Source: a virus
Virus record (IMG/VR): IMGVR_UViG_3300018080_000460
Span: 1-29,796 of that record
Direction: 5' to 3' (one strand)
Length of the DNA stretch: 29,796 bases
Shown: piece after piece, positions 2,504 through 25,499 of the stretch
Layout of the letters: every line of letters begins with the position of its first letter
Position numbering within the stretch: position 1 is the stretch's first letter
Made by a program: the position numbers and the translations under genes
The notes under the pieces: model-generated
Database searches by the model: none
What the model was told of the DNA's origin: nothing
Seen by the model: the letters and a program-made list of their open reading frames with translations, nothing else

Positions 2504-3755
2504 GATGCCGGAAATAACAATGATTGGTATTGAGAAGATAAAAGAGTATCCTATTAATGCAAAAACACATCCAGAGAAGCAAATAAAGAAATTGGAAGCT
2601 TCAATAACTGAGTTCGGATTCAATGTTCCTGTGGTAATAGACAAGTTTTTCAATATCATAGCTGGGCATGGGAGAATACTTGCAGCAAGGAACTTAAAAA
2701 TACCAAAGATCCCATGTATCATGGCAGAACATTTAACAAAGGAGCAAGTTAGAGCATACAGGCTTGCAGATAACAAAACTGCTGAATCCGACTGGGATTT
2801 TGAATTACTTAAGGTTGAATTTGAGGAATTGAAACATTTAGGTGCTGATTTGGAATCTACTGGATTTGATATGAAAGAGATAAATCCATTGATTTCCGGT
2901 GGAAAAAGAGGTCTAAATGAAGCTGCAGAAGAAGAGTTTGTTGAAGTTAATGCTTATGAAAGAGCAAAAAGCAAGACTAAGATACAGAAAGGGGACGTTT
3001 ACCTTCTTGGAGATCATAGAATTATGTGTGGAGATAGTACTAAATCAGAAGATGTTGGAATATTAATGCAAGATGAGATTCCTATCCTTATGGTAACAGA
3101 TCCACCTTATGGTGTAAATTATGATCCAAAATGGAGAGATGAAGCTGATAAGAAAGGATTACTAGGTAACAATTACCCCTCAAGAGCAATGGGGGAAGTA
3201 CCAAATGATGATATAATAGACTGGTCAGCAGCATATAAGCTGTTTAAAGGCGATATATGTTATGTATGGCATGCAGGTAAACACACAAAAGAAGTCTCAG
3301 AAAGCTTGCAAAAGTCTCAATTTGAGATCATTAATCAAATAATCTGGGTAAAACCTCACTTTATTCTTTCAAGAGACGATTATCATTGGAAGCATGAACC
3401 TTGTTTATATTGCGTCAGGAAAGGGAAAAAGCATAATTGGCAAGGGGACAGGTCACAAACAACAGTATGGGAAATAGCTGGAATGAACTGTTTCGGTGGT
3501 TCAAAGAAGAAAGAGGATGAGATGACAGGGCATGGCACTCAGAAGCCATTAGAATGCATGAGAATACCGATTATCAATAACACTTTAGAGAAAGATCTGG
3601 TATATGATCCCTTTGGAGGATCCGGAACAACACTTATTGCATGCGAGAAAATGGACAGAAAATGCCGGATGATGGAGATAGATCCAGTATATTGCCAGGT
3701 AATAATCGATAGATGGGAGAAATATACATCACAAAAAGCAGCAAAACTCAATTAA
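2469..3755 (+). CDS. ParB-like domain fused to beta-class DNA (N4/N6) methyltransferase
   Basis: 428 aa from ATG 2469 (a TTG 27 bases upstream is in frame but weaker). Residues about 14-110 form a ParB/sulfiredoxin-type domain: an N-terminal strand-turn (KIKEYPINAKTHPEKQI), IAGHGR at 65-69 and LAxNK near 100. The remainder is an amino-methyltransferase: DPPY at 211-214 is catalytic motif IV, and DPFGGSGTT at 380-388 followed by MEID at 402-405 is the SAM-binding motif I. Motif IV before motif I is the beta-class order of N4-cytosine/N6-adenine methylases. HGTQKP at 355-360 is also typical. ParB-methylase fusions are common in tailed viruses and probably modify viral DNA against host nucleases; the fused ParB part may help target or regulate it. 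Position next to the terminase fits modification around packaging. Confidence 0.9.
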   Translation: MSEIPNPTEEVKMPEITMIGIEKIKEYPINAKTHPEKQIKKLEASITEFGFNVPVVIDKFFNIIAGHGRILAARNLKIPKIPCIMAEHLTKEQVRAYRLADNKTAESDWDFELLKVEFEELKHLGADLESTGFDMKEINPLISGGKRGLNEAAEEEFVEVNAYERAKSKTKIQKGDVYLLGDHRIMCGDSTKSEDVGILMQDEIPILMVTDPPYGVNYDPKWRDEADKKGLLGNNYPSRAMGEVPNDDIIDWSAAYKLFKGDICYVWHAGKHTKEVSESLQKSQFEIINQIIWVKPHFILSRDDYHWKHEPCLYCVRKGKKHNWQGDRSQTTVWEIAGMNCFGGSKKKEDEMTGHGTQKPLECMRIPIINNTLEKDLVYDPFGGSGTTLIACEKMDRKCRMMEIDPVYCQVIIDRWEKYTSQKAAKLN

Positions 3756-3766
3756 AAAGGATAAAA

Positions 3767-4135
3767 ATGACAAAAATAACAATTAAGAAATTCAAGAAAG
3801 CAGTTCTTGGAACTGGGGGAGTTATAACATTAATAGCTCAAAAGCTGGGGTGCGAAGTTGGAGCAATATACAAGTTCCTTAAAAGGCACCCTCTTATGAA
3901 AGAAGTACTGGATCATGAAGACAGTAGTGTAACAGATCTTGCTGAGAATAAGCTTATTAAGAAGATTGAGGAAGGGGACTGGAAAGCTATCAAGTTCAGG
4001 CTAGATCGGAGAAGCGATAAATATACACCTAAGCAAGAGATCACCAGTTCTGGAAGCCAGGAAATAAGAATAAGCTCTGAAGAAGCAGAAGAGCATATTG
4101 AGAAGTTTTTGAAGAAAGATAAGAAAGGAAATTAA
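3767..4135 (+). CDS. terS: Putative terminase small subunit (122 aa)
   Basis: ATG 3767 follows AAAAGG; an upstream in-frame start at 3713 would overlap the methylase and lacks a ribosome-binding site. Residues 1-45 look like a helix-turn-helix: KFKKAVLGTGGVITLIAQKLGCEVGAIYKFLKRHP, as in small terminases that recognise the packaging site. A long helical centre (about 45-80; SVTDLAENKLIKKIEEGDWKAIKFRLDRR) follows; the phrase with ENxLxxxIxxGDxxAxxFxL is frequent in phage terminase small subunits just before the large subunit gene. It sits one gene position upstream of the large subunit, separated only by an RNA-coding interval. A different small DNA-binding protein is possible, but context makes TerS most likely. 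Confidence 0.75.
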   Translation: MTKITIKKFKKAVLGTGGVITLIAQKLGCEVGAIYKFLKRHPLMKEVLDHEDSSVTDLAENKLIKKIEEGDWKAIKFRLDRRSDKYTPKQEITSSGSQEIRISSEEAEEHIEKFLKKDKKGN

Positions 4136-4210
4136 AGCAGCGTGGTGTAATCAGGTTAATACAGGCAGTTCATGGCCCCCAGATTTGTGGTTCAAATTCA
4201 CTCGCTGCTA
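4136..4210 (+). tRNA. tRNA-like gene, anticodon CAU (Met/Ile2-type), imperfect stems
   Basis: The 75-base stretch folds as a cloverleaf: a perfect 7-bp acceptor stem (AGCAGCG, 4136-4142 with CGCTGCT, 4203-4209) and discriminator A4210; U8 (4143); D arm GTGT/ATAC with A14, G18G19 and A21 in the loop; T loop TTCAAAT (4191-4197). The 7-base anticodon loop is TTCATGG (4169-4175), reading CAU. Odd points are two mismatched pairs in the anticodon stem (GGCAG against CCCCC) and a T-T mismatch plus a G-U pair in the T stem. No CCA is encoded, which is normal in archaea. It begins directly after the TerS stop. It may be a working viral tRNA, a decayed copy or a tRNA-derived signal. Confidence 0.6.
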
Positions 4211-4213
4211 TAA

Positions 4214-4294
4214 ATGCAGGATATTTGGGTGCTTGATTCAGTAATGGTCAAGTGGGTTCAGCGTTTACCTGTTTTCCACCCAATCCAGTTGCAT
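4214..4294 (+). ncRNA. Compact tRNA-like structured RNA candidate 1 (ends in TCCA)
   Basis: TTGGGTG (4225-4231) pairs perfectly with CACCCAA (4277-4283), a 7-bp acceptor-like stem followed by T-CCA (4284-4287). Inside it, directly after the first strand, CTTGA/TCAAG (4232-4236 with 4248-4252) makes a 5-bp hairpin with an 11-base loop; the second half holds CAG/CTG (4259-4261 with 4269-4271) around a 7-base loop. The main stem can be extended outward by GGAT/ATCC and ATGCA/TGCAT (4214-4222 with 4283-4294), with bulges. This is too short for a canonical tRNA and lacks a T loop. It shares its plan with the next element. Expression and function are unknown. Confidence 0.4.
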
Positions 4295-4309
4295 CATATT
4301 CATGGTAAT

Positions 4310-4372
4310 GGAGAGGGACAAGTTCTATTGTCTCGTCACACCCCTATACACCTGTGGACCTCTCCACCACCA
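4310..4372 (+). ncRNA. Compact tRNA-like structured RNA candidate 2 (ends in ACCACCA)
   Basis: GGAGAGG (4310-4316) pairs perfectly with CCTCTCC (4359-4365), followed by A and an encoded CCACCA (4367-4372). Directly inside, GACAA/TTGTC (4317-4321 with 4328-4332) forms a 5-bp hairpin with loop GTTCTA; a second arm is formed by GTCACA (4335-4340) with TGTGGAC (4353-4359), with one bulged G. The three-way junction matches the preceding element (7-bp closing stem, immediate 5-bp hairpin, second arm, CCA-like end). It lies between the tRNA-like gene and the large terminase start. A conserved structured RNA, a packaging-related signal or a leader element are all possible. Confidence 0.4.
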
Positions 4373-4374
4373 TG

Positions 4375-4385
4375 TTTTTAATATA
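4375..4385 (+). promoter_or_regulatory. Possible TATA box for the large terminase gene
   Basis: TTTTTAATATA lies 46 bases before the ATG at 4421; initiation about 26 bases after its centre would leave a leader of roughly 14 bases. No Shine-Dalgarno site is evident before the ATG (AAATACA), which fits initiation on a short or absent leader. An 11-codon frame (4393-4428) overlaps the terminase start. The box is weaker and different from the three shared late promoters. Confidence 0.3.
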
Positions 4386-4420
4386 GGACATTATGAAAAA
4401 ACAAAATATAGATAAATACA

Positions 4421-6967
4421 ATGGATAAATTAACAGATCAAGAATTAATTAAGGCATTCAAAGAGAGTTTAAAAGATAAAAAGCTAAAAGATTTCTTATA
4501 TCATTATTTTAAAAATCATTTTGAGCAGTTTTGTATGTTTGTTCTTCCTGAAGCTTTTACTTGCGGATTTACTGAATCGCATAGAATCATTGCCAAGAAG
4601 CTATTTTCAACAGAAAACTCAGCAGACGCCTTACCAAGGGGATGGGGGAAAGCTCAAAGTTTAGATTGTAATATATTGACTCCAAAAGGATGGATAAAAT
4701 TATCTGAATTGAAAGTTGGAGATGAAGTTATTGGTGGTGATGGAAATCCTACAAGAGTAAAATTTTTGCACCCAATAGAAAAAATGGATTTGTACACGGT
4801 TAAAACAAGAGATGGTAGAAAAACATTGTGTAATCTTGAACATTTGTGGAATGTTCAATGTCCTTCAAATACAAAAAATAGGATTGTAACTAAGACAACA
4901 AGGAAAATACTATCTAATTATAAGAGTGAAAGATTTGACAAAAGGAATGGAAAACACTATGTTGAATATAGGTGCTTCTTACCAACAGCAGAAGCAGTTA
5001 ATTATAAAGAAAAGAAATATGATATTGATCCATATACATTAGGTTGTTGGATTGGTGACGGAACTTCTGCAAACAGTAGTTTTACAACAGCAGATCCTGA
5101 AATATTGAGTTATATTGATTACCCAATTAAAAAACAAAAAGCAAAAATGAGATATACCATTCAAGGATTATTTCCTAGATTAAAGAAACTAAAACTTATA
5201 AAAAATAAACATATTCCTAGAAAATACTTATTTGGTTCAATAAAACAAAGAGAATCTTTATTACAAGGATTAGTAGATACTGATGGTCATATAAAAGATG
5301 GTGGGAATCTTTTTGTATTTTATACTAAATACAAATCTCTTGCATTGTCTTTTCTTGAACTTTTGAGGAGTTTAGGTGGTGCTGGAACAATTGGTGACAA
5401 ATTTACAATGTGTAATGGAAAACAATTTCATACTTATGCAGTTACATGTAGGGTTCCAGATAATATTATTCCATGTAGATTGAGAAGGAAAAGGAATAAA
5501 TGGCAAGGAAGTTTGAAAACAAGATCAGCAATTGTTGATATATCTTTTGAAAAACACGATTATGGTAGATGTATTACTGTTGAAAATCCAGAAGGCACAT
5601 ATATTACTGATGATTATATGCTTACTCATAATAGTACTGTTGTTGGTCAAGGATTCGTTATATACAACATTTTATACGAGCTTGAACCTTACATTGTTTA
5701 CACTTCACAAAACCATCAGAAATCAGTATCATTCCTGGAACCAGTTACTAGGGAACTCAAACGTAATATGATAATAAAGCACATATGGGGTAACCAAGAA
5801 ATAAGCAAAGGAAAAGATCAGGAATCTGGGAAAGATAGAGAGGACTGTTTTGATGTAAAAGGTAAAATAAGGATTCAGGCATTATCTTTCGAGAAGAATA
5901 TTAGGGGGTTGAAGTACAAGAATATAAGGCCAACACTTATAATCCTTGACGATATTGAAGATGATCAGAGGGTTTTAAATCCAGATTTAAGATACAAGGA
6001 TGCAAACAAATTAAATAAACAGATTATTCCAGCTATGGATATTAAAGGAAAGTATAAGATGATAGGTACGATTTTACATCTTGACAGTTTGCTAATGAAA
6101 AAGATCAGGTTGTTGGATGGTCATATATTCAAGGCTTGTCAGTTAGATGATCAAGGCAATATAATAGAAGGATCTATACTTTTCCCAGAGAGATACAGTA
6201 AACAGAAGCTTGAAGAAATAAAGATTGAGATAGGTTCTACAAGTTTCCAGTCTGAATATCTTAACAATCCAATTGATGATACTGCAAGCCTTATTAAAAG
6301 GGAATGGGTAACAGAATGTTTTGATAGTGAATTAAGTTTTGGAGAGGTTGGTAAATATGATTTCATGGTACAAGGGGTTGATTTTGCTTTTAGCGATAGG
6401 ATCACTGCTGATAAATCTGCGTTTGTTGGTATTGGCAAAAGAACTGAGGGGTATACGATTTTACACTGTAATACTAAAAAGGGCCTTTCAATTACTCAAC
6501 AATTTGATTATATTGAATATCTTTCAGGGATTCATAATTATGATGATAATGCTCTGGAAGAAAACTCTATAAGGTCAATGAGCAAAGAGCTTCTTATAGA
6601 TCAAGATACCGGAGAAAAGAAATGGAATTTCCCTTATACTTTGTTCTGGACAGGTGCATCTGATTCAGCTGCAAAAAAGAATTATGATGCTGAATTTGAA
6701 GGTAAACGTCACACAATAGGTAAGATCTCAATGATAAAACGTCTTGCAACACAGTTCGAAAATAGGCGGATCAGGATACCTTATAACACAGAAAAGGACA
6801 AAGAGATTGCTCATTCTATTATGGATGAGGTTTGCACATATGCTTTAAATGATGGTAAACTTGTTGAAGTTGGACCTCATGGTGATATACCTATAGCATT
6901 AGGTTTGGCTATTGAAAGAGCTGAGATGGAGAAGTTTGAAGTTGAGATGGGGGTTTTGGAAGTATGA
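4421..6967 (+). CDS. terL: Terminase large subunit containing an in-frame intein
   Basis: 848 aa precursor; removing residues 78-404 leaves a 521-aa TerL of normal length. The spliced join gives PRGWGK-ST, a complete Walker A (residues 72-77 joined to 405-406). Walker B follows as LIILDDIED (506-514), then the coupling motif MIGTILHLDS (547-556) and the conserved FQSEYLNNP (609-617). The C-terminal RNase H-like nuclease shows GVDFAFSD (652-659, Asp654), a further Asp664 and HGDIPIALG with Asp822. TerL is the ATPase-nuclease motor that packages DNA into proheads through the portal. It follows TerS and the RNA interval; the next gene overlaps by ATGA. Because the intein splits the P-loop, the motor cannot work until splicing has occurred. 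Confidence 0.96.
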   Translation: MDKLTDQELIKAFKESLKDKKLKDFLYHYFKNHFEQFCMFVLPEAFTCGFTESHRIIAKKLFSTENSADALPRGWGKAQSLDCNILTPKGWIKLSELKVGDEVIGGDGNPTRVKFLHPIEKMDLYTVKTRDGRKTLCNLEHLWNVQCPSNTKNRIVTKTTRKILSNYKSERFDKRNGKHYVEYRCFLPTAEAVNYKEKKYDIDPYTLGCWIGDGTSANSSFTTADPEILSYIDYPIKKQKAKMRYTIQGLFPRLKKLKLIKNKHIPRKYLFGSIKQRESLLQGLVDTDGHIKDGGNLFVFYTKYKSLALSFLELLRSLGGAGTIGDKFTMCNGKQFHTYAVTCRVPDNIIPCRLRRKRNKWQGSLKTRSAIVDISFEKHDYGRCITVENPEGTYITDDYMLTHNSTVVGQGFVIYNILYELEPYIVYTSQNHQKSVSFLEPVTRELKRNMIIKHIWGNQEISKGKDQESGKDREDCFDVKGKIRIQALSFEKNIRGLKYKNIRPTLIILDDIEDDQRVLNPDLRYKDANKLNKQIIPAMDIKGKYKMIGTILHLDSLLMKKIRLLDGHIFKACQLDDQGNIIEGSILFPERYSKQKLEEIKIEIGSTSFQSEYLNNPIDDTASLIKREWVTECFDSELSFGEVGKYDFMVQGVDFAFSDRITADKSAFVGIGKRTEGYTILHCNTKKGLSITQQFDYIEYLSGIHNYDDNALEENSIRSMSKELLIDQDTGEKKWNFPYTLFWTGASDSAAKKNYDAEFEGKRHTIGKISMIKRLATQFENRRIRIPYNTEKDKEIAHSIMDEVCTYALNDGKLVEVGPHGDIPIALGLAIERAEMEKFEVEMGVLEV
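4652..5632 (+). mobile_element. Intein (327 aa) with LAGLIDADG homing endonuclease, class 3-type motifs
   Basis: The insert begins at Ala78 (AQSLDCNILTPKGW; block A with LKVGDEV) and ends with LTHN before Ser405. Position 1 is Ala, not Cys/Ser/Thr, so classical class 1 splicing is excluded. The three residues that define class 3 inteins are all present: Trp143 two residues after the block B His141 (EHLW), Cys384 in block F (YGRCITVEN, where class 1 has Asp), and Thr402 directly before the terminal His403-Asn404. The endonuclease motifs are LGCWIGDG (207-214) and LQGLVDTDGH (281-290), with block D KNKHIP (261-266) between. Both LAGLIDADG acidic residues are kept, so homing activity is plausible. 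Splicing needs Ser405 as +1 nucleophile. Confidence 0.93.
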
Positions 6968-24265: not shown

Positions 24266-24694
24266 ATGTTAAAGCTAAAGTTCAAACTTACTGATCTTAA
24301 TAAAGGAAAAAAAGACACTTTGCGAAGATCCGCATGGATTCTGTTCAAATCCATGTTGAAAATGGAAAAAATTGCTCAAGACTTAGCACCTGTTGATATT
24401 GGTCAATTGAGACAAAAAATCAGTTTAGATCCTATAGGGATAGCAACGGAGTATACTTTAACATCAGCTGCACCATACTCAGCGTCAATGGAATTTGGAA
24501 CAATACCATACTGGGTGCCTATTGCTCCACTCAAAGAATGGGCCAAAAGAAAATTAGGGGATGAGAATATAGCTTATGCTGTAAGAGCAAAGATTGCTCA
24601 GTCAGGAATAACTGCACACCCTTTTATGCGTCCTGCCAAATTTACCGTGGAATCTATTTGGGTTCCAATATATCGACAGCAAGCGTTTATATAA
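24266..24694 (+). CDS. HK97 gp10-like neck/tail-completion protein (142 aa)
   Basis: Contains the family pattern: KIAQDLAPVDIGQLRQKI, then YTLTSAAPYSASMEFGT and a C-terminal GITAHPFMRPAKFTVES. The AP-x-D-x-G-x-L-R and Y-A/S-x-x-x-E-F-G-T motifs are typical of gp10/gpZ-like tail completion proteins, which join head and tail. Placed between the stopper and the tail terminator, as in HK97-like gene order. It heads its transcription unit; the structured region follows its stop. Confidence 0.85.
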   Translation: MLKLKFKLTDLNKGKKDTLRRSAWILFKSMLKMEKIAQDLAPVDIGQLRQKISLDPIGIATEYTLTSAAPYSASMEFGTIPYWVPIAPLKEWAKRKLGDENIAYAVRAKIAQSGITAHPFMRPAKFTVESIWVPIYRQQAFI

Positions 24695-24695
24695 T

Positions 24696-24803
24696 ATTAA
24701 ACACGCTCCCCTGCTTGTGTTTAATTGTTGGAGGTTTTCTGGTTTTCCTCCAACTAAATTAGTGGCCAAGAGGCCTTAAAAACAGTTCCAAGAGGAACAT
24801 CAA
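24696..24803 (+). promoter_or_regulatory. Four-hairpin untranslated element with SD-sequestering hairpin
   Basis: Four perfect hairpins lie in 103 bases: ATTAAACAC/GTGTTTAAT (24696-24725, 9 bp); GTTGGAGG/CCTCCAAC (24727-24754, 8 bp); GGCC-AAGA-GGCC (24764-24775); GTTCC-AAGA-GGAAC (24785-24798). The last two share the core CCAAGAGG with an AAGA loop. The AGAGG of hairpin 4 is the only plausible Shine-Dalgarno for ATG 24804, so folding would hide it. This suggests a translational control element or protein-binding RNA. No canonical poly-T terminator follows any hairpin. Confidence 0.6.
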
Positions 24804-25499
24804 ATGACAGCATACTTAAATTCGGAAGATATTATCGTGGACTTTCTCAGAGTTAGACTTACAGATCCTAGGGCTAGAGCAGAAACAACAAACAGTGAGA
24901 ATTTTACAGCTTCAGTTTCTCAGACAACTTTTTCTTTGACAGCACCATCTGGGAATGTCCAGGCGGTGACCCTTGTTCAGGTTGATGGAACAGATCAAGT
25001 CAAATGGAAAGATTATTATATTGATTTTCAGAATCAAAAAGTTATTTTTTTCAATGGTTTGACAGGCGGAGAATCTGTTGATATTACATACAAATATGGC
25101 ACAACAAGCTGGATATATTCAGATGATCCTCAAGACTCACTTTCTGCGACATCATATCCAAGAATAAGTGTTAAAATAATCGGTGGCACAGGAGTTAGAC
25201 TCGGACAGTATGAAGCAGAAGTTGAAAGTTCAACATTATTTTCTGCGGATTTTTGGGCAAAAGAGCAGCAGTTTTTTACCATAAACAGCATAAAGTATGA
25301 GGGGCAAGATCTTGCAAGGTATTTAGCAAGCAAAGCCACAGAAGCTTTTGAATTATATATAAACGATCTTCACCCAATACTTTATAATTATTTGGTGACT
25401 CAAGTTCCGACAAATGTGCCACGTGATGATTCAAAACAAGCATTCCATACAGTGCTTACATTCAATATGAAAGGTCTTACTTTAGGGAGGAGATCATAA
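24804..25499 (+). CDS. Tail terminator-like protein with beta insert (231 aa)
   Basis: The first 25 residues (LNSEDIIVDFLRVRLTDP) and the section from about 110 (SYPRISVKIIGGTGVRLGQYEAEVES...INSIKYEGQDLARYLASKATEAFELYI) resemble tail-terminator/tail-tube-initiation proteins; residues about 30-108 look like an inserted Ig-like domain (FTASVSQTTFSLTAPSGNVQAV...). Location between neck and tail-tube genes supports the call. Start ATG 24804 is set by the AGAGG eight bases upstream, inside hairpin 4. The next gene follows with AAGGAGG after 5 bases. Confidence 0.6.
   Translation: MTAYLNSEDIIVDFLRVRLTDPRARAETTNSENFTASVSQTTFSLTAPSGNVQAVTLVQVDGTDQVKWKDYYIDFQNQKVIFFNGLTGGESVDITYKYGTTSWIYSDDPQDSLSATSYPRISVKIIGGTGVRLGQYEAEVESSTLFSADFWAKEQQFFTINSIKYEGQDLARYLASKATEAFELYINDLHPILYNYLVTQVPTNVPRDDSKQAFHTVLTFNMKGLTLGRRS

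Follow-up and report, generated by a model that had tools for sequence, protein, structure and literature searches.

The gap between the genes for the small and large terminase subunits (terS and terL) of a virus in the IMG/VR collection contains a tRNA-like gene followed by two stem structures (hereafter E1 and E2), which raises the question of what RNAs these structures belong to. An earlier note on this DNA took them for compact tRNA-like RNAs ending in CCA and CCACCA. The DNA analysed (the window), an IMG/VR virus record 29,796 bases long, has the gene content of a tailed virus: a ParB-methyltransferase fusion, TerS, TerL with a LAGLIDADG intein, portal, and head and tail proteins. The features of the terminase region, all on the plus strand, are the following.

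3713-4135, plus: terS, terminase small subunit (PHROG 309 and 24579, E about 4e-5); the true start may be 3767
4136-4210, plus: tRNA-Met(CAT)-like gene, directly 3' of the terS stop codon (ARAGORN; Rfam RF00005, 31.1 bits, cut-off 29 bits)
4214-4294, plus: E1, canonical bulge-helix-bulge (BHB) element (motif scan, shuffles, folding)
4214-4218 and 4290-4294, plus: E1 outer helix H1, ATGCA/TGCAT, 5 bp
4219-4222 and 4283-4286, plus: E1 centre helix, GGAT/ATCC, 4 bp
4223-4225 and 4287-4289, plus: E1 bulges of 3 nt on opposite strands, 5' ATT and 3' AGT
4226-4231 and 4277-4282, plus: E1 inner helix H2, TGGGTG/CACCCA, 6 bp
4225-4288, plus: excised RNA of 64 nt, possibly circularised, as predicted from the archaeal endonuclease cut rule (PMC2738675)
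4301-4374, plus: E2 hairpin, 14 bp, CATGGT (4301-4306)/ACCATG (4369-4374) and TGGAGAGG (4309-4316)/CCTCTCCA (4359-4366)
4375-4379, plus: run of five T directly 3' of E2, from the sequence a possible archaeal terminator signal
4421-6967, plus: terL, terminase large subunit (PHROG 38, E 7.5e-49), with a LAGLIDADG intein at about 4646-5629 (PF05204)

Scans with the single TerL and TerS sequences gave no matches, and relatives were found only via alignments. The TerL alignment, run against 84,980 bacterial and archaeal genomes, retrieved a single relative (36%), in a Candidatus Woesearchaeota MAG; within the phylum of this MAG, a TerL relative is present in 7 of 371 genomes, that is, in six besides the MAG itself. 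Because, among the genomes searched, TerL relatives occur only in Woesearchaeota and its phylum, the host of the virus is probably a DPANN archaeon, with Woesearchaeota as the candidate. The tRNA genes of the MAG are rich in introns, which are carried by most of them (14-54 nt, with many BHB-like junctions), and about 3 of 17 encode the CCA end. With TerL alignments, we also gathered about 50 related viral contigs (denoted by L numbers), the nearest of which shows 72% identity in the C-terminal part. Inteins, called in the relatives from how long the TerL frame is and how it is split, occupy approximately the same TerL site in the window, L188, L192, L202, L208, and L215, whereas other relatives are without one; in the window, this site is near the Walker A motif. 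Elsewhere in the window, the intergenic stretch 24690-24805 contains four stem-loops, including GUUGGAGG..CCUCCAAC, and is strongly structured (z -3.73).

Both structures are in the sequence as the earlier note described them. E1 has a 7-bp stem (TTGGGTG 4225-4231/CACCCAA 4277-4283; 59 nt), a 5-bp hairpin (CTTGA/TCAAG) right after the 5' arm, and TCCA (4284-4287) after the stem; E2 has the stem GGAGAGG 4310-4316/CCTCTCC 4359-4365 (56 nt), the hairpin GACAA/TTGTC, and ACCACCA (4366-4372) after the stem. The closing stem of E2 stands, but with T4309 paired to A4366, the letter taken for the discriminator, it has 8 bp rather than 7. Gene calls, ARAGORN, and Rfam likewise bear out the placement of both elements between the tRNA-like gene and terL. 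That the shared plan exceeds chance was also borne out: dinucleotide shuffling of 4211-4420 produced two copies in none of 20,000 sequences and at least one copy in 23. These figures are optimistic because the plan, which in the shuffles included CCA, was defined after the sequence had been seen. Folded singly, neither 63-mer stands out (z -1.05 and -1.48); 4288-4380 folded with its flanks reaches z -3.04. The claim that did not survive is that of free CCA and CCACCA ends: both stems run outward through the supposed tails, to 4214/4294 in E1 (pair probabilities 0.73-0.94) and to 4301/4374 in E2 (0.51-1.0), and the CCA letters are paired, looped, or bulged within these longer helices. In E2, A4366 of ACCACCA is paired, the next two C's are in a loop, and the remaining letters belong to the outer helix. 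Both elements are real: structured, non-coding RNA elements that adjoin a tRNA gene. Protein-coding candidates were rejected: the 55-aa ORF at 4214-4381 scores -0.05 per codon, compared with 0.075 to 0.225 for the real genes of the virus, and has no convincing tblastn match, and the frame through E2 as well as the frame created by splicing E1 have the codon usage of non-coding sequence and lack convincing relatives.

By its published definition, the archaeal splice motif consists of a 4-bp helix between two 3-nt bulges (PMC4090602), in which the endonuclease cuts between bulge nucleotides 2 and 3 (PMC2738675). E1 has this canonical geometry and order, with all 15 of its pairs Watson-Crick, and the predicted 64-nt excised RNA almost coincides with the first of the tRNA-like RNAs of the earlier note. 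Because E1 has the exact shape at which archaeal introns are cut, the virus may borrow the tRNA-splicing enzyme of its host for the processing of its packaging transcript. The score of E1 was reached in 3 of 20,000 shuffles of the local gap and, when the whole window was shuffled, in 0 of 60. As a control on geometry, ten terS-terL gaps were scanned with 300 double-bulge geometries (centres of 2-7 bp, bulges of 1-5 nt, both chiralities), and the only strong loci were E1, which also reads with a 3-bp centre, and L009 152-307, both in the canonical 4/3/3 arrangement. Among 1,600 shuffled sets of ten gaps, at least one canonical gap appeared in 15 sets and at least two in none, compared with the two observed; all geometries together gave 1.7 strong matches per shuffled set, and BHB was one among several structure types considered post hoc. 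The two gaps are the only ones of the ten with a BHB, and the L009 motif is unrelated in sequence to E1.

Across approximately 423 kb of related loci, both strands included, the L009 motif ranks second and E1 third. First place goes to a canonical BHB-like helix in L192 (2987-3105, minus strand), in the TerL region (probable intein), which is perhaps due to chance. The BHB duplex energies are -16.0 kcal/mol for E1 and -15.2 kcal/mol for L009, next to -9.6 to -14.9 kcal/mol for the known BHB motifs of Haloferax volcanii (PMC7714728), which were perhaps computed differently. In the positive control, the tRNA junctions of the Woesearchaeota MAG, the best BHB score was 28.8, compared with 38 for E1. 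The energy model does not discriminate between the BHB fold of E1 (-22.0 kcal/mol) and the 7-bp register, which is the minimum free energy fold (-22.3 kcal/mol), and the centre helix has a probability of 0.27-0.48. Covariation in E1 is uncountable because no homologue was found in the 55 related loci. Splicing the flanks of E1 together gives no tRNA and no convincing protein. A BHB in E2 was rejected, with only a 3-bp centre and an energy about 9 kcal/mol worse than that of the best fold; also rejected was the occurrence in E1 of a U-rich motif shared by relatives (ACCTCTTTTTTCC), for which the alignment is not significant. Our working model, in which E1 is an archaeal BHB site processed by the splicing endonuclease EndA in a terS-terL transcript and E2 is a terL-proximal stem-loop, appears to us evenly poised between true and false.

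In E2, the two helices are separated by a 2x2 internal loop (AA/CC) and enclose two inner arms. In the sequence, the 14-bp stem is followed by the T5 run, as in an intrinsic terminator, but the loop exceeds the length that the terminator scanner allows. Gapped relatives carry strong stem-loops of unrelated sequence before terL, with 14 pairs in L096, 11 in L186, 16 in L193, and 8 in L089; their combined Fisher p is 1.3e-5, compared with 0.85 for control stretches, and the E2 stem by itself falls short of significance (p 0.18). E2 is probably the version of this recurrent class in the window and probably serves as a terminator, attenuator, or leader structure. In the pair L108 and L185, the hairpin is kept with two compensatory pair changes. 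At L108 1491-1549 and L185 468-524, this conserved hairpin has the loop CACCTCTTTTTTCC and is followed by the conserved stretch CGCCTCGCCTCCGT.AAGGGC, the CACCTC part of which we take to resemble the 3' end of 16S rRNA.

The terS-terL gap is a tRNA hotspot, a fixed site across related viruses: tRNA genes of differing identities lie in it in the window (4136-4210), L009 (384-457), L010 (3488-3569), and L088 (2702-2787). None of the four encodes CCA; those of L010 and L088 carry anticodon-loop insertions (introns) of 9 and 13 nt, respectively, and the genes are gained or lost from one relative to another. The tRNA-Met gene of the window is weak, with two mismatches in the anticodon stem and one in the T stem, and may be decaying or unusual. 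Several close relatives have a different gap or none, with terS and terL overlapping in L008, L218, L011, and L206; because several close relatives (L008 and L218) are gapless, E1 and E2 are dispensable to the virus group. A block of about 66 nt in the gap, GGTT..TACCTAAA..TGTTTGCCGAG.TGTG..CGA.TATCGGCT, is common to L088 (2630-2695), where it directly precedes the tRNA, and L096 (3411-3476), although their TerL sequences have diverged. Remnants of tRNA genes suspected by eye in L096 and L185 had no Rfam support.

This setting bears on two explanations that start from tRNA. One is that of the earlier note, namely, that E1 and E2 are compact tRNA-like RNAs, serving as mimics or as substrates for the CCA-adding enzyme. 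Their common plan, their place after a tRNA gene, and the CCA letters all fit, and by eye E1 parses as a T-armless tRNA; however, those letters are contained in longer helices, and the absence of encoded CCA from the viral gap tRNA genes, together with its low frequency in the MAG, speaks against tRNA mimics. A T arm is absent from both elements, and the earlier note itself had observed that T loops are lacking; Rfam gave no match to either, RF00005 not even at E 10, and ARAGORN gave none. Nor did the note's suggestion of a new RNA family fare better: covariance models of E1 and of E2 found no homologue in the 55 related loci, which by the note's own standard of refutation leaves a conserved family with these stems unsupported, a joint model of the two had zero consensus base pairs, and the exact 5' arm of E1 had two unrelated chance matches in viral contigs. 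Among known systems, mascRNA/menRNA and the CCACCA-tagged unstable tRNAs invoked by the note match its picture of a short tRNA-like RNA with CCACCA but receive CCA post-transcriptionally at a free 3' end, whereas the letters here are encoded in the genome and lie in helices. We consider this explanation quite unlikely. To the other, that turnover in the hotspot left E1 and E2 behind as remnants of tRNA genes or of tRNA introns, we attach an equally small probability: gap tRNA genes do recur and come and go among relatives, yet the flanks of E1 and E2 contain no recognisable D or T arm, and the stems are perfect, which those of decayed genes are not. A tRNA with one or two introns, or a circularly permuted one, was rejected since, by eye, the E1 circle lacks an acceptor or D arm; its loop, AUCCAGU, could pass as an anticodon loop (CCA).

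A simpler possibility is that E1, like E2, is a plain stem-loop, that is, a terminator, attenuator, or leader structure, and that its fit to the BHB is the coincidence of an imperfect hairpin. The recurrence of unrelated stem-loops 5' of terL, the T5 run after E2, and the compensated hairpin of L108 and L185 are all compatible with this reading, which we find somewhat doubtful given that, of the 300 geometries, E1 and L009 both matched precisely the canonical one. An element acting at the DNA level, such as a cos or pac site or a sequence bound by terminase, or else a packaging RNA would suit the position between terS and terL, and E2 is highly palindromic, such that its model also matches the minus strand; but with so many relatives gapless and their terS and terL overlapping, such a function is hardly to be believed.

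Under the BHB model, a single transcript would run from terS through tRNA-Met to terL, with the E1 BHB inside it. Cleavage by the host EndA 3' of positions 4224 and 4288 would release the 64-nt RNA, which the host ligase RtcB would then probably close into a circle; the RNA flanking E1 would be either joined or left separate. The outcome could be a reshaped terL leader or the uncoupling of terS, tRNA, and terL. For E1, we infer transcription, cleavage, and circularisation, as well as the purpose and any benefit, from the sequence.

The closest known counterpart is a BHB intron of 46 nt that H. volcanii carries in the 5' UTR of HVO_1309; it was found as a circular RNA and is cleaved by EndA in vitro (PMC7714728). 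Like E1 (64 nt), it is a short BHB-flanked insert in the untranslated leader of a gene; unlike E1, a predicted site in a viral terminase leader, it belongs to a cellular gene, with the circular RNA and cleavage demonstrated. E1 shares with archaeal pre-tRNA introns the 4-bp centre, the opposed 3-nt bulges, and the chirality but lacks the surrounding tRNA body. The cbf5 pre-mRNA introns of Crenarchaeota (PMC2738675) are also of the BHB type and lie outside tRNA and rRNA, but they are 16-44 nt long and interrupt codons, whereas the surroundings of E1 are non-coding. In the processing stems of archaeal pre-rRNA, a BHB site for EndA similarly separates parts of a polycistronic RNA, although the excised body is much larger than that of E1. 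Outside tRNA and rRNA, BHB introns have been described in only two archaeal genes, cbf5 and HVO_1309 (PMC7714728), and we found in the literature no description of BHB splicing in a non-coding region of a virus. The splicing enzymes of some DPANN archaea (ARMAN) have a broad substrate range (PMC12397907).

Tentatively, and with somewhat less than even confidence, we propose that this tailed virus, with Woesearchaeota as its probable host, has its packaging-gene transcript processed by the host tRNA-splicing endonuclease, which frees a 64-nt, probably circular RNA between terS and terL, and that the same happens in L009 from an unrelated sequence. If this is the case, recombinant enzyme would provide a cheap test for hosts that are not culturable, and viruses of DPANN archaea would recruit the tRNA-splicing machinery for late mRNA processing and make small, possibly circular RNAs.
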